Shown one piece after another: positions 476 through 57,035 of a stretch of DNA of 64,000 nt. The DNA lies in the NCBI GenBank assembly GCA_025558095.1, contig JAIVFI010000015.1, positions 372,001-436,000 of the forward strand. The letters are read 5' to 3'. The stretch comes from Hyaloraphidium curvatum (lineage: Eukaryota > Monoblepharomycota > Hyaloraphidiomycetes > Hyaloraphidiales > Hyaloraphidiaceae). The notes beneath the pieces are model-generated. The model was not told the DNA's origin. It did no database searches and worked only from the letters and a program-made list of their open reading frames with translations. A program made the translations under genes and the position numbers. Every line of letters starts with the position of its first letter. The stretch's first letter is position 1.

Positions 476-3400
476 CCCCAACTCGGCCTCCTTCCTCCTC
501 AAGAAGCCCAGAACATGCTTCGTGAGGTGTCTCCAGGACTACTCCGTGCCGCGGCAGGTCATGGTGCCCATCCTTTATCTGGTCGAGAAGGCTGGAATCC
601 ACATGGGCGTGGAGTTTGGCGGGCAAGTCGAGGTGACACACGAGTGCCAGTACGTCGGCCGCGTGCTCTCGGCGAACGGTTCTGACACACCGGCCCAATA
701 GCCTTTGCGACGATCCGCTATCAACCGAAACTGCCAAAAATGCTCGTCTCGCGGTTCCCCTCACCGCCGACCAGGCGCTTGATCTCCACCACGCACGCAA
801 CCACTTTTGGGTTGTTGCGGATGGCGAGGTGGCCCGGAAGGTCAAGGCGGCCGCCTCGGACCTCGTGCTGTGGTCAAGCGAGAACGTCGGACCCTGGCGG
901 GGCGCGCTTCGGGCTCGGAACATTGACGTGCCCACGGGCGATGGCGCGGCAATCCTGGGCTTTCGGAATATGAGCAGTTTGATGCTCGCCCCACTGCGCG
1001 CTGGGTACGACGTGGACTGGCTCCGGAGCGGCACGTGGTGGGTTTCGGCTCGAACGGCGCATGGTCGATGGATGATTCTCAACAGGAAGGCGCCCGACAG
1101 GCAAGTTCTCGGGGAACGCATCGTCACCTCGTTCGCCAGCAAGAGGGCACTTTCCCACGATGCCCGCCTTTTCCCCGCACTGCACGATACGGAGGCATGG
1201 CTCAAGGTTCGCCAAATCGCGCAAAGCTTCGGTGAGGCCGTCTCCACCGCGCACATTGCCGACCGCCTCACCAGGCACCTCAGACGGATGGTTCAAGGAC
1301 TCTGACAAGATCACGTTCGCCGCGGCCCTCGACACGACCCCCCTCCTGCCCATCACCGACATCCCTCGCCGACCGACCAGCGCCGGCGCAGGCAACATTG
1401 CAGCCACCCTGGGGCAACCTTCTTCGGCGGGATCGACGGAGCCTACCAAGGAGCACGTGGTCGTGGAATCTTCCCCGGGCCCGGCCACCGCGAGCCCCGG
1501 TCCTGCGGCGCGCAGCCGAGTAGCGGCGACCCCGGATCCCGCAAGCCCAACCCTGTCGGGTTCACCGAGCGCCCAGGAGTGCTGGACTGAGGACGGCGCC
1601 TGCGCCGCCTGCGGAGTCTCGAAGGTGCTGGTCGGCAAGACAAGGCATCGCAGCTTCTGCACCGAAAAGGTGCGGCGCTTCGTCTCCGCCACGATGCGCG
1701 CGGGAAGGCCGAGCAGCGACTACGAGGCGAAGGTCAGGTCAGCTCTTTCATGTCAGTTGCTTTACTCACGCTGCGTTTACTCCAGATCTCTACCACGGCC
1801 CACGGCAGGCCGGTGCAGTCGGCTGTTTTGGACCACCTGCGGCACATCCTAGTCCGCGAGTTCGAGGCCGAGGCACACACCGAGAAGCTCCGCAAGGAGC
1901 TGGGCCTCGCTATGGGAATGTTTCAAAGGCACTGGGTCGGGGAGCGCAGCTACGTCCTGGACACGGCCACCGTGTCCAGAATGGCCACCATGGGTACGAG
2001 CGAGTCCGGTGCCGTGCGGTTCGTCACTCATTCCCGATATTCTGCGGCAGTCGCGAGTCGGCTACAGCTTGGCCATCGCGAGAGCAGGTATCAGACGGGG
2101 GCAGGCCTGACTGCCGGCGGCGACGAGTTCGCCGCAGACCGCAAGGCGACAGCGGTGGCCATGTACGCGTCGGTCAAGCGCGACTTTGTTCCGATGCTGA
2201 TGAGGGACGAGCGCGCATCGTACGAGGAACGACTGCTGAGCTCGGTGAGTTTCTGTGACGGTCATTAGCGCTCGCTGGCATTTAGCATCCATCTTGCAGG
2301 ACCTCAACTCTGTTGTTGGAGAGTTCATTCGCAACGCCAAGCGGCTGGCGATTTGGGAGACTCCCAAGGACATCCGCAAGCTTATTCGCGGCCAAGTTCA
2401 GAATGCCGGTGCCTTGTTCCCGACAAAGACCCAAAACCATGTCTGCCGCACAATCTGGGAATCGCTTTTCGACTTTACCGTCATCACGGCCTACCGTCTG
2501 GAACTCGGCGCAACGATCCTGCTGGGCAAGGTGAAACTGGCTGAGGCTGCGACAGCCCCGCGCGCCGCCGCAGGCGGAGGAACCGAGGCACAAGGCGGCC
2601 GCGCCAGCCGGAGGAAACGGCGCACGTACCACGAGGACAAGGACGATGAGGCGGAGAATGAAGCCGAAGCAGCGGCTGACCAAGCCGAATCGGATCTTGG
2701 TGGTGCCCAGCAGCCGGCCGCGCAGGCCGACGCCACCGCGGCTCCCCGCGTGTTCTCGGACGAACAAGTCGCCGCGGCCGAGCGAATTCGAGCGGGTATC
2801 TTGCGGTGCCTGGGTGGGGAGGAGATCGCGAGGAAGGTGTTCGAGGAGCTGAAAGGGATAGCGAGAGTTCAGGTCAGTTTCTGATCTGCAGCTCACCGCA
2901 GACCCCAGCGGGCCGCTGACATCACACCTGCAGTACCTGCCTGTTCCTCCCTGGCCGCTGCGGAGGGTATTGACGGAGGAGATCGTCGCCGGCTTGGCGG
3001 AGGGCTACTTCGAGAGACATGGGTACGAGGCTGCAGCGATCGCGGCGTTCGGGCCCATTGCAGTGAGTGACTTTCGCGAGCTGCGTTGGCCTTGGCTGCT
3101 AACGCCCCGTGTCCTCGGTAGACGCAGGAACGCGGGCGGCTGCAAGGGCTGACGGACGACCAGCTGCTGAACGAGATCGCCGATGAGCAAGCTCAAGAGG
3201 CAAGAACCGTCGATGCAAATTGATGGGGCCGCGATATAACGAGAGCATTCGCCCACAGACTATCGTCGACAAGTACAAAGACGACCGTGCGGCGTACGAG
3301 AAGGCCTATCAGCTGGCCATTCGCGGAGTTTCGGACGGCTTCAGGCAGCCGCGATATTGGTATCTCACGACGTTACAGAAGTACCCAGAGTTCTGCGAAC

Positions 3401-6400
3401 AGCACCGAGACGCCACGGAGCTTGCGGAGAAGGGCAAGATCGTGCCGCGCTGGGTGCCTACACAGAAGATGCAGCGGGCGGAGGTGAGCGACCCCAGTTT
3501 CGAAGCTCTCGGGTCTCACTCGGTGCGCAACTTCACCACCGACTCCAGGAAGGCGCGCAAGCTGCGGATGGGGAGCAACCGGCCGCGGAGCCCGACCAAG
3601 AGACCGACGAGCAAGGGGACGGGGAGGAGGAGGAGGACGAGGAGGAGATTGAAGATTTCGAGGAAGAGGACGCGGGCGGGGACGCCGCGGGGCAACCACA
3701 GGCACCGGATACCGGCGGTCCGGTGGGCGGCCACGCGGTGCCGGCGGCCGAGGGTGCCGAGGGCCGTGCTGCCGCGAGGAAACGCAAGTCCAAGTACGAC
3801 ATCAAGTGGAACCTCATCCACCTGGCCCGACACGCCATCGTCAAGGGCCTCGAGGAGGTCAACGAGGAGAGAAAGCCAGCGCTGGACGTCTACAAGGCCC
3901 AGTTCGACGAATACCGGAAGGCGCGCGAGGAGCGGGTAAAGCAGGCGGCAGAGGCTATGCCGCTCAGGAGTTCGGAAGGCTCTGCTGCTGGGGGTGGAGC
4001 GGCGTCGAGTGCGGCGTCGAACGAGCCACGCCGTTCGCAGCGCCTTTCGCAGCGTGTGATCGCCGGCGAGGACGGCGGGCCTGTCGGAATGGGCCCACTC
4101 GTGCCGATCGAAACGCAGGACGCAGGCGGTGGTGGTGCCTTCGACGAGCTCCGCTTCATGGAGCTTGCGGAAGAGCGCAAACGCGGGCGCAAGGCGCGCC
4201 GCACCGTCGAGCCGGCGGCCAGGGCGGCGGCTTCTTCTTCTGCACCTCCGCCGCAGTTGAAGAAGAACCTGTTCGAGCAGAAGTGGCGGGGCGACGACAA
4301 GCCGCCGGACAGCAAGCCGATCGAGGAGCTGCCGCGACCGAAGCGGCCGCTACGGATGATCAAGATCCCGCAACTGACCCCACTGGCCTCGCACCGCTTT
4401 GGATTCTACTTCCGCGAGGTCTCCGCCATATCCGACTTCCTGTGCAGGTGTGTTCGGATTTCCGGGACCGCGGTCACCTTCGGCTGACGATTTGTCTGCA
4501 ATCGCAGACTCAAGCTCGACCCGACTCGCTCTTCCTCCAAGACCGCCGCGCGCACTGCTTTCCTCGCGGACCGAGACTTTTACCTCGGCTGGATTTTCGA
4601 TCTCTCCGACTTCAGCCACCTGTTGCGCGGCTGCATCGTCCGGGACACTCCAACAATCATGCATTTCAATGGCCTGCAAACAAACGGAGTGGAGCTGCGG
4701 TTCATCTTGACGCGGGTCGAGTGGGTGCCGAAGTCGAAGCAGAAGAAGCTGGCGGAGGAACGGCTTCGAGAGGCCAAGAAGCGTGCTTCGGGGCTCACGG
4801 CGGCGGAGAGGAAGGACTTTGACAAACGGAAGCGGAAGCTCGACGAGGAGCTCGACGAGGAGGAGAGGAAAGAGTTCGGACGGCTCTCGGGTAGGTGTCA
4901 CTTACGTCGTCGACGCTGTCAGGCTCCTTGACTTGACTCGCACCTCAGACCGGATTCTCAGCTCGCTACCGCGGAAGCTGCTCGAGTTCGAGGACCTTCT
5001 TCAGGAACCCTTTATCTTGGCCACGGATCCCGGGAACAAGGCCATCACGACGTCGGTCGCCATCATCTCCAAGCAGCACTTCGAAAGGATCCTCGAGATG
5101 GTCAAGCTGCAGCTCGACGATCCGAAAAGACCAGGCAGCAAGCTCGTGCCTAACCCGTTCAACACCGCCATCACCGTCATCCAGCCCAACGGGACGCGGT
5201 TCAAGTACACCTTCTCCTACAAGTACGAGAACGGCCTGATCAAGAGCTGGGACCTGATCCCGTCCAAGAGCCTCAACATCGAGCCGCACGTCCACAACGG
5301 CCGGCTTTACACGCGGCAGCACAAGTACTCGTCCGACAAGTCGCCGGAAGCCTGCGTGCCGAAGCCGCAGTACCTCTCGACGCCCGAATCCATCAAGGGC
5401 AACTGCCCGGAGGAAAAGCAGAGGCAGCGGCGGAGGGCACCGGGCGAGATCGCGCCATGCGATTTGAGCGATGAGCGCTGTCAGGAGTTGTTCGAGGAGC
5501 GGCGGGCCAAGTTCCTCAAGGTCAGCGGCAAAACGCAGGAGGAGGCGGAGAAGATCTGGGACCGCCTCGGGATGCTTCCCGGGGCCGCGCGGTACGAGCT
5601 CGAGCGCATGTGTCCGAGCGACCACATCCGGCGCGCAAAGGGAGTTCCGAAGAACAACAAGATGCGAGAGGGCTGGCGGAAAGAGGCAGGAGTTCTGAAG
5701 GTGAGCATGATCGTGCCTTTTCGCGAGATCACGACTCATCGAGTCCGTCTTCACGAACAGGAGGCTTGTTTCTGGGACGCGGAAAAGAAGGACTACGTGA
5801 CGCGCGCCGCCTCCGTGGAGGAATGGTCGTCGAAGCTGCCGACGCCTCGTACCAGCGATCCGGACCTGTTCCAGAGACATGCACGCTGCATGTTGCAGAC
5901 GCTTCCCGGCCTGCTGGGTAGGTTCAGCAACCCGCGCGACATTCAGCAGCTTCTGACACCGTTCTCTTGCGCCTCAGCACACTACGGACGGTATCGCGAA
6001 CGGTGAGGAGTCCGCTTGCCAATCGCTTTGGTCATTCTGCTCACCCTCGGACCTCAACAGGCAGCTGCGCATGACCAGCAAACGCCGCGGGGACCACACG
6101 ATGGCCAAGATGGCGGAGGTCTACTTTGCACCGGACGTGCTCGTGCGGCCGTACGATCCTGGCGGCGGCGGCGGCGGGGACGTGATCGTGGCGAGCGACA
6201 ACACGGCGTGGATCTCTTTTCAGAGTATTGCTGGGACCGTACTACCGTACGGCGACGCGAACTTTTCGACCAGCATCCGGGGAAGACCTCCCACTCCGAA
6301 CCGTCAGGTGAGTTCGCGAGCACACGAGGACCGCGAGATTGCTGACCTTCTGCCGACCACAGCTCGTCAAATCTCTTCGGCGCCTCGAAGAGGAGGGCAG

Positions 6401-6755
6401 GGACCCGCGCAAGAACCAGCACCTGGCCGAATGGCGCAAGGATCTGTGCCTCTCGTTTGTCCGCGAGTTCCGAACTTCGCGGATGTGCAGGGAGTGCCAC
6501 ATCACCGTGTGCAAGCAGGCCAAGGGAAGGGAGTGCGGGTTGTTGCAGAACAACAAGACGATCTGGGGTGTTAAATGTGAGCATCAATGTGGCCGCGGAC
6601 AGGGCCGACGAGCTGACCGATGATTTGCAGACTGCGAGCTCTGCCACGTGATGTGGAGCAGGGACATTAACGCAGCTTTCAACATCCTCTGGATCTTCTT
6701 GTTTACCATCCTCAACGAGGGAGACAGGCCCGAGGGATTTTTCGTTGAGGTTTAG
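476..6755 (+). CDS. Fanzor: eukaryotic TnpB-like RNA-guided nuclease with a very long N-terminal extension
   Basis: Fanzors are transposon-linked RuvC nucleases that cut DNA guided by an omega RNA. The catalytic triad is visible: Asp in ATDPGNK (codon 5026-5028, RuvC-I), Glu in REFRTSRMC (6465-6467, RuvC-II) and Asp in SRDINAAFN (6663-6665, RuvC-III). Between the last two lies a zinc ribbon, CREC at 6486-6497 and CELC at 6633-6644. Upstream, QTNGVELRFIL matches the conserved strand before RuvC-I, and YGDANFSTSIRGRPPTP is also a family hallmark. Introns that keep the frame are 650-701, 1232-1283, 1733-1785, 2245-2299, 2873-2933, 3063-3121, 3209-3258, 3484-3548, 4448-4507, 4891-4948, 5701-5760, 5918-5977, 6003-6060, 6308-6362 and 6578-6630. 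The spliced product is about 1,800 residues, far larger than typical Fanzors. The first 1,200 or so residues match nothing I recognise; they hold a Cys-rich patch (ACAACGVSK), a Pro/Ser-rich stretch and an acidic region. The start is unresolved. No break is seen in the nuclease part. Confidence 0.88.
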
Positions 6756-6986
6756 AGTGGGGACGTTTAGAGTGGCTGTATGCCTCGCGACGTTAGTCGC
6801 TTTCTTGAGTAGTAGTAGAAGCCAGTGCAGGCGGCCGCAGCACATTGAGGAGACACCCCGGGCCCGGAGCTCCGCGCATCGTGCCTTCTGCGCACCGGCG
6901 TCTCTGATAGGCGGCTGTTCGGGGCGCATCGGCAGGGTAGGTGTGTTGCGGGGCGCGGCGTATGCCCGCTGACCCCTGCCCGCCAG
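6756..6986 (+). other. intergenic stretch: candidate omega RNA region and 5' leader of the next gene
   Basis: The segment between the Fanzor stop and the next start codon has no credible ORF. It contains a direct repeat GTTTAGAGTGG that begins at the Fanzor stop codon and recurs about 15 bp on. It also has a GCGAC/GTCGC hairpin at 6787-6800 and a GCGCA/TGCGC hairpin at 6874-6893. In Fanzor and TnpB elements the guide RNA usually overlaps or follows the 3' end of the nuclease gene, so this is where to look. The same stretch must also serve the next gene: GTAGGTGTG through CTGACC to CCGCCAG directly before the ATG at 6987 looks like an intron in its 5' leader. The omega RNA assignment is inference. 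Confidence 0.3.
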
Positions 6987-48221: not shown

Positions 48222-51200
48222 TCACGTACTGGAAGCCGAACCCGAATTAAGATCCACCACACCAATGCGCGCACGGAAAAGTTCAAAAGGGGTCGGAGCT
48301 AAAGGTTTGGTAAAGCCGTCCCCAAGGTTGTCGTCTGACACCACCCGCGCAGTCTCAATGGTTCCATTTTGCACAGTGTCGCAAACCAGGTGGTACTTGA
48401 TATCGATGTGCTTCGTTCGCTTGTGGAACTTAGGATCACGAGCGAGCTGTTCAGCAGACTTGTTGTCCTCGAAAAGTCGCGTAGGTGTCGTCCGCGCAAA
48501 GCCAAGTTCCTGCAGGATGGAGCGCAGCCAGAGAATGTTGCGAACTGCATGCGCCATAGCAACATACTCGGCTTCCGTAGTAGACTGTGCAACGATGGAT
48601 TGCCGCTTGGTCAGCCAGGCAATGCTGGAAGCACCCATGAGGATGACGAGACCCGTGGTCGACTTGCGGGTCATCACACAGCCAGCAAAATCGGCATCCG
48701 CATATGCACAGAGATCCAAGCAATCACCAGACGCAGGGCGACGGCCAAGAACGAGTCCATAGGTACGGGTGCGGCGCAGATAGCGCAAAACATCTCGAAG
48801 CGCCTTGATGTGAAGAGGCCCGAAGCTGTTGGCAAAGCGAGAAAGAAAAAAAACCGCAAAGGCAATGTCTGGCCGTGTTGTGATAGCAATCCAAAGTAGA
48901 GATCCAATCAGGCCCTTGTAGTTGAAGCTTTTGACGTCGTCTTGGATCTTCGTTGGCAGGCTGTCAAACACGGTGTGGTCGAATGGGCGCAGCAGCTGGA
49001 GTGCATCCGGGCGCATCGGCGTGAGTGCAGACTTTGTCTCCTTGCTGGGAACATCACGCGTGAAACCGAAGTCGCGGAGAACGCGGTCGATGTACGCCGT
49101 CTGCGACAACGAGATTGTGCCGGTAACGGTGTCGCGACGGATGTGCACGCCCAAGCAGTAAGTGACAGCCCCCAGCGAGTTGATGTTGAAATGCTGCTTG
49201 AGGCTGGCAAACAACTCATCGATCTCCAGTTGTGAGGTGGCAGCAACCAGTAAGTCGTCCACGTAGATAATAATGCGGCCGGCCGCAAAGCGCACGTAGA
49301 GATAGCTCTCGGAGGCCAGCTTCACGAATCCAGCCTGGCGGAGGAAATGATCAAGCATTGCAAGGAACAAGCACATCGCTTGCCGTAATCCATAGAGACT
49401 CTTCAGCAGCCGAAGCACTGTGCGCGAGGAAGACTCCTTGAGAAACCGCCATCCCGGAGGCGGCCTGATGTAGACAATGTAGTCCAGCGGAGCATGCAGA
49501 AACGCCGTCTTGATGTCCCAGTGATCACAGAGGAGTCCCAGCGTGGCAACAAAAAGAAGGAAGAGGCGGAAAACGACTTGGTTAGGAACGGCAGCGAACG
49601 TATCGTAGTATGTTTGCTCGGATTGGCGGTTTCCATCCGCCACCAAGCGTGCCTTGAAGCGCGTAACGTTGTTGTTCTGGTCCTTCTTGACGTCGTAGAC
49701 GTAGTGCGAGGGCACCACCTTGTCCTCGTCACCAGTGGGGAGTTGTTCCGTCTCCTCGACCACACCCATCTCAAGAATCGACTTGTTCTCCTCCTGCCGC
49801 GCTTCCTCCCACTGAGCCGCATGCGGTGACCTCTGCGATTTGTTGTATGTGCGCGGAACGGTGACATCGTGCACTGACAGCAGGGTCACCGTGTAACACA
49901 CCGGGCTCGTGTCTGGGTGAGGGGCGTTGGTACCTGGTATGCGCCACATCTCGAAGGCTGGGAAGCGGAAAGGAGGGGAGAATGTCAACGGGGTGACAGT
50001 CGAAGACATGGCAAGGGGGTCCTGGAGACCGTCATCTGGCCAAGGGTGCTCGGCATGCCATCGCACCCCATCACCCGGCTCATCGCCATTGCCAGCATCC
50101 ACTTCCTCCCGCTCCGCTTCCGGTGGGTACTCAATCTCTTCCTCAAGGAGCTCCCACTCGTATGCTTCGTTCGCCTCATGTCGCTGTGCAGATTCCTGGG
50201 GGCCCGTTCCCGCATCCTTGCGCTGTGTCCGCTGATCATCGTCGCTGTCTTCATCCATCGCTGGATCCACCGGCTTGGAGAGCCAAGGGGGGAGTCGGGG
50301 ATGCACAAGAGCGAAAGGTCGTTGCTTCCCCAGCTCGTCAATCTCGCGGAAAGAGCCGGGCGAGCGTTTAGAATAGCGCTCGTTGAAGACAACCGATCGA
50401 GCATGAACTATCTTGCCTGTGGTCAGATCCAGAACCGTGTACGCCTTCAGATGCTTCGGGAAACCGAGGAAGATTGCACGGTGTGCACGGTCGTCCAGAG
50501 CCTTGCGCTGGCTGGGGAGGATGCCATACCAGCACTCCGACCCGAACGTGCGGAGACGTGACAGGTCGGGTTTAGTCCCTGTCCACAGCTCATGCGGCGT
50601 GGTAATGTCCGTTCCGTTTGCGCCCCGTTGCATCGTCTTCACCGTTGGGAGCATGTTGCGGACTTCAGTCTTGTATGCGAGGGCGTAGTTCCAGAAATGC
50701 TTCTCGACGTCAGCCTGAATGCAGAGCGCAAGTACCCCTTCGACCTGGGAACGATGCTCGCGTTCGGGTACCGCGTTCTGTTGAGGCGTATCAGCTATGG
50801 AGACCCAGAAGTGAGTGCCTCGTTCACGTAACCAGGTCTGGAACCAGCCCAGCTCCCTTGCGTTCCATCGCCCGAGCTCGGTACCCTGGTCAGACTGGAG
50901 GTGCTTGAGGCGTTTCCCGGTCTGCGTCTCGGCCCACACGATGAGCTGCTGAAGGAGAGGTGCCGCTTCGTCCTTGGTCTTCAGGGGGATCGACCAAAGC
51001 TTCTGCGACCACTCGTCCTTGACGTCCATCCAGTAGCGGTCGCTGTGCACGGAGGTGATATCGACCGGGCCCTTGAGGTCAACGTGCCAGAGATCCATAA
51101 CATCCTTGACGTGCTCACGCATCGAGGGGCGGAACGGCGCGGTCATCAGCTTCGCGCGCAGGCAGACGTCGCACTCGATAACCTCCTACTCGGGGCCCAG

Positions 51201-52130: not shown

Positions 52131-55100
52131 TTAGTCACGAATCTCTACAATTCCCATAAGTGCCCTGAAACGTTGAAACTTCTCCCTTGGTAGCTGTTTG
52201 GTGAGCAGATCCGCAAGCTGGTCCTCTGTGTTGATGTACTCCAGCTGTATCTCTCCACTATCAATTTTCTCCCTCACAAAATGGTACTGCACTCCAATGT
52301 GCTTGGTACGTTCATGAAAGACAGGATTCTGCGCCAGCTTGATAGCCCCCTCATTGTCCTCCTTGATGACTGTTGGCCCTTGCTGAGGAAATCCCAATTC
52401 CTCCAATAAACTCCTTAGCCACGCAACTTGACGTCCAGCATAAGATAGAGCCATGTACTCGGCCTCTGTTGTTGAAAGAGCCACCACTGGTTGCAGTTGC
52501 GACTTGTAGATGATAAGACCGTTCCCCATCATCACTACAACCCCAGTTGTTGACTTCCCAGTGTCAAGATCCCCAGCAAAACTGGCGTCTGCATATCCAT
52601 GCAATGCTTTGGTCATGTCCAGATTCGGATCCCTCTTGTAAACCAAGCCAAAGTCAGCTGTTCCCTTCAAGTATCTGGTTGTCTTCTTGACTTGCTCCAC
52701 TGCTTCACGAGTAGGTGCCATCCCATGACGGCTCTCCGTGATAATAGGTAAGGCAATGTCCGGCCTGGTGAAGTTCATAGCATACATCCAACTTCCCACC
52801 ATTGATCTGAACGGAAAACGTCCGATTTCCTGCTCCTCAGCAGCAGACAACTCCGTCTTCCGTTTCCTGAGCTTCACCCCAACGTCCATAGGTACAGAAA
52901 CTGCATTGCAAGTGTCCATTCCGAAGTCCTCCAAGGCTTTCTTGATGTAGTTGGACTGCTTGATTGTGATTGTTCCAGCCTTCTCGTCCTGCTTGATTTC
53001 CAAAGCCAGGAACTTTTTCATGCGACCCATGTAACGTATCTTAATCCGCTTTCCCAGCTCCTCAAGAAATGCAATCGTCCGTTTTTCGTCCGTTGAGCTA
53101 CATCCAAAGTCGTCCACATGAATAATCATCAAAAGAAACCAATCATCTTGCCGCAGAAAGTAGATGCAGTACTCCTTTGAGCAACGTATAAGCCCCATCT
53201 CCGTGAGTATCTCGTGCAGGTGTCTGTGCCAAGCACGTGCAGCTTGCACAAGTCCATAAACCGCAACTCCAGGTCGAATTACAGTAGGTCTTCCATCAGT
53301 AAACTCAGGTAAATCCATCCCTTGAGCTGGATACAAGTAAACTTCCTCGTTCTCCTGGAGCTTAGCCTGTAGAAATGCAGCATTTGCATCTGCCTGATGT
53401 ACAATCATGTTGTTCTGAGCAGATATCCAAAAGAAAAGCCGTACAGCAGCAGCAGAAGGTACAGGTGCAAAGGATTGACCAAAAGAAGATGGATCCTGCC
53501 AATCACCCCTTGCCACCCATCGAGCCTTGTAGTTTTCCTCCCCCACAATGCTGCCATCAGCTCCAGGTTTGAGGTCAAATACAAATTGGCTTCCAACCGC
53601 GAATTTTTCCTTGCCCTCAGGCAAGCCCATGATGTTGTACGCATCTCTGCTCTTGAAGTTGCCAATCTCACGTTCCATTGCCTTGGCCCACATCTCACGA
53701 TCCTCTGAACGCATTGCCTCTGCATAGTTCCGTGGTACACGTGCTCCAGTGCTTGCAGCAAAGATTCCATCCATGTGTGCCATGTCCTCCCAAGTTGGTA
53801 GGTGTCCCTGCCAGTCCAGGTGGTCCTGGACCTCCTCCATCAGGAAATTGATCGATTCCAGCGTGATCACGTTGATCTCCTTCTCGTTGCTCGTGTTGGG
53901 GGCTTTCCACCACTCCCCAGGAGGTCTTGGAGCTCTGCTGGATGACCTTGTAGGAAAAGGTATCTTGGAACCCGTTCCAGCCGCCCCAGCGCCTCCCTGA
54001 GCTCCGCTGCTTGATGAAGATGCTCCTCCAGGCTCCCCACGTTGGTCTGTGGCTTCCCTAGCCGCACGATCACCAGAAAGTTGCGATCCACCAACTGCCT
54101 TTCCTCCCCCTGGATCGCCACTTCCACTGCTCCCAGAGCCTCTTCCACGAGCCACCAGCTCGTCCTCACTTTCGCTCTGAGCTCGTTGATCGCGTGACAG
54201 ACGTAAATCCGCGCCTCGGCTGCCGGAACTTGAAGATTGATGTTGAGTACCTCCAACTTCCAGTCTTTGACCTCCTCCCCCGGCCTCCTGGCGCTCAGGT
54301 TGACGCTGCACACGGTCTCCCTGTGTCCCACGATGCTCCTGGTTGCCGTCGTCGATAGGATCTGCGGAACGGACCCGCCGTGGCGTCTCCGGTGACGCCT
54401 CCAATTCCTCAGGCTGCGCCGACTCCTCCACGGCAAGTCGACGGTTCAATACAGCGCTCGGGTCCGCGTCCTCAGGTAGTTTTTCGACCAAAACTCTGCT
54501 TTCCAGAACCCGCATGTAGCTCTTGAGCGTCTTGTTTGACCAGCGTTCCTCGAAAACGACATCACGTGAGTCAAAAATCCGCCCGGTCTCAAGATTCTGG
54601 ACCGTAAATGCCTTCGATCGCGAGCTCATTCCCAGGTAGCGGCATTGTACCGCCTTAGCATCCCATTTGCCGCGCTTATCCTTGTCGACGATCGCGTAAC
54701 ACGTTTCTCCGAAACGTCGGATGTGGCTAATGTTCGCCCGTCTCCCAGTCAGCAGTTGAAACGGCGTAGACCCTTTCTGCCACGTCTTTGTGTTCGGCAA
54801 ACGATTCCGTGTGTTGATGTGATGATGCAGTGCGTATCCCCATAACGACTTCGGCGCTTTCGAGTCGATCAGGATGGTCCGGGTCCCTTCCTCAGCCGTC
54901 CGGTTCCGCCGCTCAATGACTCCGTTCTGCGCAGGCCGATTCGTTACCGACGATTCCAACTTGATTCCCTCGTTCTTGCAGTACGCTTCGAGCCGTTTTG
55001 ACGAGAATTTACCTCCGGGATCGACCCGCATGCATCCGACCTTTAGGCTGAACTGGTTCTTCACCCACTCGGCAAAGTGCATCATCCAGTCCTCCGCCTC

Positions 55101-57035
55101 CGATTTGTGCTTCAATAGGAACGCAAACTCCGCAGAAGTGTACTCGTCGACTGCATGCAATGCCCAGCGTTCTCCATGCACCGTTGCAACGTCCGATTGT
55201 ATCAGGTCCCAGTGAGTCAGCTCAAACGGCCGCGAGACTTTCCGCTCCGACTCCGGATAGGGCAACTGATGCATCTTCCCCATCACGCACTCCTTACAGA
55301 AGTTGTTGAGGTTTCCAGCAAACACGTACTCCTCCAATCCATCCACAATCCCAGCCTGTTGAACCTTCCTGAGTGCCGCGATCGGGTAGTGCCCGCAGCG
55401 CCCATGCGCAATCTCCGCGCTCAAATCCCCTTCCTGAGCACTCAGCATGATCTGTTCGTCATGCTCGTTGAGGATTTCCGCGTTGAGATAGTAAACGTGA
55501 CGATCTATGCGGCAAGTGCCCCGCACGTCGCCGCCCTTGGTGATGGCCCCTCCATCCGGACCCAGAAGCGTGTAGTATCCCATCTGCCCTAGTCTCCCAA
55601 TCGAAATGAGCGTTGCAGGAAGATCTTTGATGAAAAGCACATCTTCCAGGGTGACGATGTCGCCAGAATTGGTGAGCTTGATCTTGAGCTTTCCGACTTC
55701 GATCGCACGCGCGATCCCTTTTCCCATTCGAACATCAACTGCATCGCACGGCTTGATGCCGTAGAGCAGTTCCCTGATTCCCGTCGCGTGCACGGACGCG
55801 CCGCTATCCCCCATCAGCCTGCCGCGCATCTCCTGGCCCGTCTTCGCCGCGTGCACGACGTGTTCCGGGGGTTTTTCGTATCCACCGTCCCCCATCGTCT
55901 CCCCATCGTTTCCCTCGATTCCGCCCTCCATCATGAACAGGAACGCGCCGAATCGATCTTCCAGATCGGGGAGATCGCCCAGGGTGAGCGTGTTCTGCTG
56001 CTCTCGTGCCGTTTTCCCATCGTCCTTCCTCCAGCACACGGCCTCGAGATGACCGTCCTTTCCGCACTTGTTGCAGGTTTTGTCACGATGGGTGCAGTCC
56101 TTCTTGACGTGTCCACCCTTCCCGCAGCAGAGGCACGTGATTCCCGAGCCGTTTTCGCCCTCCGCCGTGGCCTGCCGACCCCCGCGATTTCCGAATCCTC
56201 GCCCGCGACCCCTTGAACCCCCGCGGTCACCTCCATGGCCACCCCGTGATCCTCCGCGACCCCTGCCACGGTTTAGAGCGTACATCAACGTGTTTGGAGC
56301 GGGATTCACGGTTATGTTGGCTGCCCCAGGTGAGTACGTATCACCATTTTGCTCAGCTCGCTTGATCATAGTCTCCTCTTCCATCTCCATCCTCTTCTGA
56401 AGGTATGCAACGTTCAAGATAGGGTGTTTCTTCACTCCATTTTCAGTCTTCCACTCGTGTTTGGTCTGTGCTCCCAGCCAAATGCCGTCAATCTCGGCCC
56501 GGACTTGATCAAACTCAGGTAGGTCCTTCAGGACTTTCCTCCAGATGCTCATATCATCGTCATCTCCCTTCAGCTTTCCCAGTGCTTCAACTTCCATCTT
56601 TTTCTGCATGAAGCGGGTAAAATTCGGAGCCACCCGGTCGGTTTTGATGAACTCAAAGCTGTAGTACTGGACCTCGGCGTTCCCTTGCTGCGCCACATTT
56701 TCCGTCACGAAACGCTCCTCTAGGTAGTCCCAGATGTCCTTAGCAGTGTCCATCCTGCTGCAGATCCTTTTGAGACCAATAGAGAGTGATCCTACCAGGA
56801 TCCCTTGAGCTTTCTGGTCCTTCGTGTTCCAGGCTGACAAATCATCTTCCGTCTTTCCTCCCTGCCCTACCACGGGCTTTGCCACCTTTCCAGTCACAAT
56901 TTGCCAGTCACTCTCCCTCTGGAGCTTGGCCTTGATGTCAATTAACCAATCCTGGTAATTGGTTTGTGATCCGGTTTCCTCGAGCTTGGCCCCCCCAAAC
57001 AATGCCACACGGGTTCCTCCGACCGAAATCTCCAT
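52131..57035 (-). CDS. element B gag-pol polyprotein, intact
   Basis: One uninterrupted 1634-codon frame encodes all copia functions. Gag starts MEISVGGTRVALFGG and has an RGG-rich stretch and two CCHC knuckles, CLCCGKGGHVKKDC and CNKCGKDGHLEAVC. The protease is MGDSGASVHATG. Integrase has the zinc site (HGRCGHYPIAAL and CKECVMGK), catalytic Asp in THWDLIQSD, Asp in RVDPGGKF and Glu in NGVIERRNR. RT has HVDDFGCSSTD in place of the usual YVDD-L. RNase H has STTEAEYMALSYAGRQVAWL, EDNEGAIKLAQNPVFHERTK and a final LADLLTKQLP. There is no frameshift between gag and pol. A 1634-residue product is slightly longer than the usual 1300-1500, because of an Arg/Gln/Ser-rich linker between integrase and RT. 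Confidence 0.93.
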   Translation of the reverse strand: MEISVGGTRVALFGGAKLEETGSQTNYQDWLIDIKAKLQRESDWQIVTGKVAKPVVGQGGKTEDDLSAWNTKDQKAQGILVGSLSIGLKRICSRMDTAKDIWDYLEERFVTENVAQQGNAEVQYYSFEFIKTDRVAPNFTRFMQKKMEVEALGKLKGDDDDMSIWRKVLKDLPEFDQVRAEIDGIWLGAQTKHEWKTENGVKKHPILNVAYLQKRMEMEEETMIKRAEQNGDTYSPGAANITVNPAPNTLMYALNRGRGRGGSRGGHGGDRGGSRGRGRGFGNRGGRQATAEGENGSGITCLCCGKGGHVKKDCTHRDKTCNKCGKDGHLEAVCWRKDDGKTAREQQNTLTLGDLPDLEDRFGAFLFMMEGGIEGNDGETMGDGGYEKPPEHVVHAAKTGQEMRGRLMGDSGASVHATGIRELLYGIKPCDAVDVRMGKGIARAIEVGKLKIKLTNSGDIVTLEDVLFIKDLPATLISIGRLGQMGYYTLLGPDGGAITKGGDVRGTCRIDRHVYYLNAEILNEHDEQIMLSAQEGDLSAEIAHGRCGHYPIAALRKVQQAGIVDGLEEYVFAGNLNNFCKECVMGKMHQLPYPESERKVSRPFELTHWDLIQSDVATVHGERWALHAVDEYTSAEFAFLLKHKSEAEDWMMHFAEWVKNQFSLKVGCMRVDPGGKFSSKRLEAYCKNEGIKLESSVTNRPAQNGVIERRNRTAEEGTRTILIDSKAPKSLWGYALHHHINTRNRLPNTKTWQKGSTPFQLLTGRRANISHIRRFGETCYAIVDKDKRGKWDAKAVQCRYLGMSSRSKAFTVQNLETGRIFDSRDVVFEERWSNKTLKSYMRVLESRVLVEKLPEDADPSAVLNRRLAVEESAQPEELEASPETPRRVRSADPIDDGNQEHRGTQGDRVQRQPERQEAGGGGQRLEVGGTQHQSSSSGSRGADLRLSRDQRAQSESEDELVARGRGSGSSGSGDPGGGKAVGGSQLSGDRAAREATDQRGEPGGASSSSSGAQGGAGAAGTGSKIPFPTRSSSRAPRPPGEWWKAPNTSNEKEINVITLESINFLMEEVQDHLDWQGHLPTWEDMAHMDGIFAASTGARVPRNYAEAMRSEDREMWAKAMEREIGNFKSRDAYNIMGLPEGKEKFAVGSQFVFDLKPGADGSIVGEENYKARWVARGDWQDPSSFGQSFAPVPSAAAVRLFFWISAQNNMIVHQADANAAFLQAKLQENEEVYLYPAQGMDLPEFTDGRPTVIRPGVAVYGLVQAARAWHRHLHEILTEMGLIRCSKEYCIYFLRQDDWFLLMIIHVDDFGCSSTDEKRTIAFLEELGKRIKIRYMGRMKKFLALEIKQDEKAGTITIKQSNYIKKALEDFGMDTCNAVSVPMDVGVKLRKRKTELSAAEEQEIGRFPFRSMVGSWMYAMNFTRPDIALPIITESRHGMAPTREAVEQVKKTTRYLKGTADFGLVYKRDPNLDMTKALHGYADASFAGDLDTGKSTTGVVVMMGNGLIIYKSQLQPVVALSTTEAEYMALSYAGRQVAWLRSLLEELGFPQQGPTVIKEDNEGAIKLAQNPVFHERTKHIGVQYHFVREKIDSGEIQLEYINTEDQLADLLTKQLPREKFQRFRALMGIVEIRD

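Follow-up and report, generated by a model that had tools for sequence, protein, structure and literature searches.

A very large, intron-rich Fanzor gene, probably carried at the right end of a transposase-bearing element in Hyaloraphidium curvatum

Introduction

Fanzor proteins are RNA-guided DNA cutters and kin of the CRISPR enzymes. In the TnpB elements of the IS200/IS605 and IS607 types, the nuclease gene is situated at the right end, the guide is derived from the flank, and the transposase is an HUH or a serine enzyme. The element discussed here is like these in the right-end position of its nuclease gene, but it differs in its DDE transposase and in a nuclease that has the DPG motif and the displaced Glu of a Fanzor.

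The Fanzor SpuFz1 from Spizellomyces punctatus (PDB 8GKH) has 638 residues and is encoded by one ORF within a locus of 2.1 kb; the account given of this locus reports that no transposase was found between its repeats (PMC10432273). Its omegaRNA lies between the stop codon and the 3' repeat, and the same account describes ghost loci, which have the ends but lack the Fanzor gene (PMC10432273). In contrast to SpuFz1, the Fanzor treated here is modelled at about 3,400 residues with 28 introns, and is accompanied by a transposase. In this last respect it is reminiscent of the mariner elements with Fanzor1, PGv-1 and PUl-1, of Bao and Jurka (2013), in which a mariner-like transposase and Fanzor1 also lie within one element; in the sets described there, as here, the 5' part with the transposase is common while the 3' part is different (PMC3627910). 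TA duplications and terminal inverted repeats (TIRs) are reported for those elements (PMC3627910); at the window element GCCA alone is seen by eye on both sides, and TIRs appear weak. Unlike in those elements, the spacing between transposase and Fanzor is 7-23 kb, and 21 of the 22 Fanzor loci found in one genome show the pairing.

The window that was analysed is a stretch of 64,000 nucleotides from H. curvatum (contig JAIVFI010000015.1, here C15); positions with a minus sign lie to the left of it. We consider it likely that its Fanzor1 gene belongs to a large composite DNA transposon, with the transposase at the left and the Fanzor at the right, which would operate by the mechanism proposed at the end of this paper. 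The Fanzor is probably cargo at one end of a jumping element of about 20 kb and not a tamed host gene.

Identity of the nuclease

When spliced, positions 4949-6755 encode the C-terminal part of a Fanzor1, an identity confirmed by sequence comparison. In a direct reading of the codons, the RuvC-I Asp is GAT at 5026-5028, within ATDPGNK and its DPG motif, the catalytic Glu is GAG at 6465-6467, within VREFRTSRMC, and the RuvC-III Asp is GAC at 6663-6665, within WSRDINAAF; a further motif reads GDANFSTSIRGRPPTP. The Glu stands six residues ahead of the first CxxC (E-FRTSRM-CREC) of a C4 zinc ribbon, CREC...CELC, which is followed by the RuvC-III Asp (CREC...CELCHVMWSRD). The original prediction had placed the three acids, the four-Cys ribbon and the GDANFSTS block at the very positions where they were found. 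A DPG motif and a Glu six residues ahead of the ribbon are described as marks of Fanzors (PMC10711439).

The core of the window protein was aligned with six other Fanzor cores from the same genome. It is 76% identical to the core on C23 and 22-24% identical to the other five, and the RuvC-I Asp-Pro, the Glu, all four Cys and the RuvC-III Arg-Asp are invariant in the seven rows. A search of the PDB with the profile of this alignment, a comparison of the kind that had been proposed as a check, has the Fanzor1 of Guillardia theta (PDB 9CER; 4.9e-8) and SpuFz1 (5.2e-5) as its top two matches, followed by LaTranC (7e-4), a TnpB-like protein (0.013) and others, nine sequences in all at E ≤ 1. The Glu, the third acid and the zinc ribbon of the window Fanzor align with those of both Fanzors. 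Counted along the printed alignment, and with the 638 residues of SpuFz1 taken as the end of the fusion chain, the Glu and the last Asp fall on E541 and D606, RuvC-I being outside the aligned stretch. E541 and D606 are catalytic residues of SpuFz1 (PMC11423790).

The Pfam family PF07282 matches the window Fanzor at 9.2e-6 and 26.2 bits, 0.1 under its cut-off of 26.3, and no NCBIfam match was obtained for this protein. Searched alone against the PDB, its sequence gave no match and the Fanzor on C2 gave two weak matches to LaTranC, while Pfam applied to single exon frames recovered neither the Fanzor nor the transposase. A search for viral relatives with one peptide pattern returned 18 matches, none of them confirmed. 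On the whole, the seven-Fanzor alignment, the PDB profile match and the purifying selection described below support the predicted Fanzor with an intact catalytic triad.

Elsewhere in the genome, at C5:336026-336172, a TnpB/Fanzor-like protein (PF07282, 31 bits) has DVG in place of DPG at RuvC-I, and its gene model adjoins a DDE_1 transposase as well as a stretch with weak XPG-like similarity (E 0.037).

Structure and size of the gene

The window Fanzor gene is very large and has many introns, and 4949-6755 is its tail. Position 4949 is an exon edge and not the gene start; the frame runs on upstream, beyond the window. On the forward strand, the N-terminal part enters the window with the end of an exon (1-59) that begins at -390 and is conserved in the C23 copy. 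It continues in modelled exons at 119-420, 476-649, 702-1231, 1284-1489, 1577-1737 and 1809-2244, and then at 2300-2872, 2934-3062, 3122-3199, 3259-3483 and 3549-4447; the least certain joins (1232-1283, 1490-1576 and 1738-1808) have no match in C23. The exon at 4508-4890, just 5' of the RuvC-I exon, is the segment with the lowest dN/dS against C23 (0.14). The RuvC-I Asp is located in exon 4949-5700, and after two exons at 5761-5917 and 5978-6002 the GDANFSTSIRG block is encoded by exon 6061-6307, the alternative catalytic Glu and the first CxxC by exon 6363-6576, and the second CxxC, the RuvC-III Asp and the stop by the last exon, 6631-6755. As had been claimed, the introns keep the frame and no stop interrupts the nuclease domain: the six exons from 4949 onwards are joined in frame via GT-AG introns of 54-60 nt. 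A number of about 15 introns does not apply to 4949-6755, which has five, but the gene does have many, with 18 in the window part of the model and 28 in the whole.

The joined model is a single ORF of 3,419 aa with no internal stop. The ORF finder picks introns so that the frame stays open. For the real strand its best spliced ORF has 3,460 aa; for the reverse complement it has 305 aa, and none of 20 dinucleotide shuffles yields one longer than 208 aa. Two other long uninterrupted ORFs of the window, both on the reverse strand (52131-57035, 1,634 aa, and 48222-51146, 974 aa), served solely as codon-usage training data. A recombined block (see below) takes in the exons left of -4154, which makes the start codon modelled at -5216 uncertain. 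Against C23, dN/dS (NG86) is 0.14-0.60 in 18 of 19 segments, the nineteenth being saturated, and 0.22 in the Fanzor core, figures that are rough since silent sites are near saturation across much of the gene. A dN/dS test had been suggested, and the comparison with C23 indicates purifying selection on the modelled gene.

About 2,900 residues precede RuvC-I in the same long frame. The modelled size is a surprise, as it would be about four times the published upper size of Fanzor1 proteins, some of which are described with up to about 800 residues (PMC10711439). In the open-licence papers searched, no literature on a Fanzor with an N-terminal extension was found, which is no proof of absence. 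This published size would fit better with two genes, an upstream cargo gene and then a Fanzor of ordinary size starting near 3549-4508, and such an arrangement would also agree with the absence of Pfam matches from residues 1-2,511 of the model and with the 10 of 28 introns that the copies do not have in common. We nevertheless regard it as unlikely. One open frame spans both parts, and the 18 introns that are common to C15 and C23 (same phase, within three alignment columns) extend from residue 312 to residue 3378; conservation stays at roughly 50% or higher where the two genes would meet, and the models at two other Fanzor loci are also long (2,725 aa on C13 and 1,310 aa on C35, with starts likewise predicted). 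In the single giant protein that we prefer, it could be guessed that the N-terminal residues have a role in DNA or RNA binding.

Ends and copies of the element

The element of the window occupies C15:359059-378820, that is 19.8 kb or about -12,941 to 6820, and its left part is beyond the window. The transposase lies at the left end, and the last gene on the right is that for the Fanzor; both are read from the forward strand. The non-coding right end (6756-6820) contains the hairpin GCGAC-GTTA-GTCGC, and it stops sharply, 65 nt past the stop codon, at four loci: on C15 (the window), C12, C23 and C29. The flanks beyond, starting here with 6821-6840, are unrelated. The left end was located via the copy on C12, an internally deleted one of 1,694 bp that keeps both ends, with the left-end motif GTTGAACAATTGCACCTTGCGACTA fused to the final 1.66 kb of the Fanzor region. 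With up to three mismatches this motif has only two matches in the genome, C12:32268 and C15:359059, the latter 51 bases ahead of the transposase match. A left boundary at -6667, as given by the first DNA search, was dropped, for the C15/C13 and C23/C5 alignments extend further left. The C23 copy is collinear with that on C15 from the transposase to the right end. On C29 there is a solo right end of about 61 nt (418170-418231), nearly identical to that on C12 and with no left part, which may be a ghost locus or a mere remnant.

No target-site duplication common to the copies was found; at the window copy no TA duplication is seen and only GCCA is noted by eye on both sides, while a related element has, also by eye, TA flanks at both ends in two of four copies (C28 and C35). 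The last 20 nt, inverted and with up to six mismatches, have no copy in the left parts scanned, and terminal inverted repeats appear weak. By eye, GCGACTAAC is common to both element ends, about 20 nt inward of each.

The left-end protein is a DDE transposase of the IS630/Tc1-mariner type. It matches Pfam DDE_3 (PF13358) at 3e-14 and 53.5 bits, above the cut-off of 28.6, and NCBIfam IS630 (NF033545) at 4.1e-27 and 95.4 bits, where the cut-off of 100 is not reached; the C23 match has one in-frame TAG. A genome search for Fanzors gave 25 matches, three of which are second exons of the same genes, and hence at least 22 loci; for the window transposase there were 34 matches, merged into at least 29 places. 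Apart from the deleted C12 copy, all of the 22 Fanzor loci, and thus 21 of them, have a same-strand transposase at a distance of 7.0-22.7 kb upstream; under random placement the chance of such a pairing is about 0.011 per locus. The 21 loci represent about seven lineages and not 21 independent cases: C15 with C23, C13, C3, two on C2, ten near-identical loci of one kind and five of another. Seven of the 15 loci in the last two, related families were compared and are 99.6-99.9% identical over 4.6-4.9 kb, and these families therefore appear to have been copied recently. No literature joining Fanzor and IS630 was found among open-licence papers, without this being proof of absence.

Two further arrangements were observed. 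At C15:544287-545120 a Fanzor element of the C7 kind abuts, at C15:545141, the apparent transposase start of a C23-type element; the junction probably represents a nested insertion. At C5:417530-422711 a left block and transposase of the C23 kind are present, with no Fanzor match nearby in the genome Fanzor searches.

A composite transposon is favoured because the right end occurs at four loci with unrelated flanks, C12 keeps both ends and the C15 and C23 copies are collinear, and likewise because 21 of 22 Fanzor loci have an upstream same-strand transposase and two families were recently copied. In the original prediction the gene had been taken for a long-resident and possibly domesticated one. 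Purifying selection, the many introns and a sequence difference of about 27% from C23 in the 3' 2.5 kb, indicative of an old split, would all be in keeping with a domesticated host gene at a single site that lost its mobility long ago. Such a gene seems to us very improbable nonetheless: the gene sits between shared element ends together with a transposase, in dispersed copies, and the same order recurs at 21 of 22 loci. The introns are no argument for domestication, since 18 of 28 match those of the C23 element copy in place and phase; the element thus carries its introns as DNA. What does stand is that the insertion is not recent, given the divergence of the window copy from C23.

Mosaic structure and state of the window copy

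In a block of about 4.1 kb, from -6667 to -2601, C15 and C23 are 89% alike, and the block is in part common to the elements on C15, C23, C13 and C5. Of 16 shared introns of C15 and C23, those at -4153 and -3144 are identical and that at -2793 is 69% alike, while the 13 from -2108 to 6630 are 55-81% alike, with shuffled controls at 54-63%. From the similarity of the block and the identity of these two introns it follows that the element is a recombined mosaic. The block bounded by -6667 is a recombined stretch, not an element end, and exchange between elements would be the simplest reading of the alignments. C13 is 92% alike with C15 over 2.9 kb just 5' of the gene model, a match that extends as far as the compared sequence does, and its Fanzor core has 24% identity to that of the window.

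Whether the window copy is still functional is a separate matter. It could be a decaying copy with a protein frame that is open but with neither movement nor cutting, which we regard as possible, though rather doubtful. Within the window family only C23, besides C15 itself, has the full layout, C12 being deleted and C29 a solo right end, and C15 and C23 are old; a broken frame could moreover hide in 1284-1737, where dN/dS is 0.60 and the introns 1232-1283, 1490-1576 and 1738-1808 are unmatched in C23. Against decay, the joined C15 model has no stop, the triad is intact, and dN/dS is below 1 in all 18 computable segments (the nineteenth is saturated). Furthermore, C12 and C23 are 94% alike across 1.7 kb, and copying must therefore have continued after the split of C15 and C23.

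A candidate omegaRNA at the 3' end

In SpuFz1, the omegaRNA location corresponds to the stretch from the stop to the right end in the window (PMC10432273), and 6756-6820 is a candidate for the 3' part of such an RNA. Constrained silent sites in the last exons and an unusually stable spliced form suggest that an omegaRNA may be made from this region. The four-fold sites that differ from C23 number 31 of 45 in 4508-4890, 55 of 80 in 4949-5700, 11 of 25 in 5761-6002, 11 of 37 in 6061-6307, 2 of 27 in 6363-6576 and 5 of 12 in 6631-6755; for the last two exons this is 7 of 39, as against 86 of 125 for the exons of 4508-5700 (p 2e-8). In two other Fanzor pairs such a drop was sought and is absent. 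Gene conversion of the 3' end as a cause is disfavoured. Similarity is near shuffle level in two of the five 3' introns (6308-6362, 55% vs 57; 5918-5977, 63% vs 58) and above it in three (5701, 71% vs 60; 6003, 74% vs 57; 6577, 81% over 43 aligned bases vs 62).

The spliced last 404 nt fold with a z of -3.97 in C15 and -3.79 in C23, compared with -0.36 to 1.01 for three control exon stretches and -1.94 for the unspliced 3' stretch of C15. When 13 windows of the spliced model are compared, both copies have their lowest value in the 400 nt at the 3' end (z -4.86 and -3.36; next-lowest -2.8 and -1.58), but the two copies are alike at the 3' end and hence do not count as independent evidence of a fold. 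No covariation was seen: among 134 consensus pairs, not one has changes in both partners, and 11 cannot form in one or more of the three sequences. The final 190 nt in unspliced form (z -0.64) and the final 65 nt (z -0.27) fold in an ordinary way, and no Rfam family reaches its gathering score in the window.

It could be imagined that, for a Fanzor of about 3,400 residues, the omegaRNA is processed out of the mRNA of the nuclease itself, at the 3' end and after splicing. We put this forward tentatively and with more doubt than belief, because there is hardly any change in the right end and at silent sites in the last exons while the intervening introns differ more, and because the spliced last 400 nt have a z of about -4 in both copies as against -1.9 for the unspliced form in C15. 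If it were true, production of the guide RNA would depend on splicing.

Proposed mechanism and significance

By analogy with known TnpB and Fanzor systems, the following course of events may be envisaged for the composite transposon. The DDE transposase would move the element, and the Fanzor protein would bind an RNA composed of the 3' part of the transcript that encodes it and of the right end. The last bases of this RNA would come from the host flank and constitute the guide; for the window copy, and provided that its Fanzor acts like the known ones, this would be the flank at 6821-6840. The Fanzor would then cut the same site without the element, on a sister copy or at the emptied donor site, and repair of the cut would copy the element back, so that the element is kept in the genome.

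The role of a Fanzor for its transposon is unproved in the published work considered here. In H. curvatum a DDE transposase is paired with a Fanzor, always in the same order, at no fewer than 21 places, and two families among these comprise near-identical copies and were thus recently mobile. With all of these in one genome, the service of a Fanzor to a cut-and-paste transposon becomes testable in a single organism. The giant gene modelled in the window furthermore raises the question of what an RNA-guided nuclease would gain from 2,900 additional residues.
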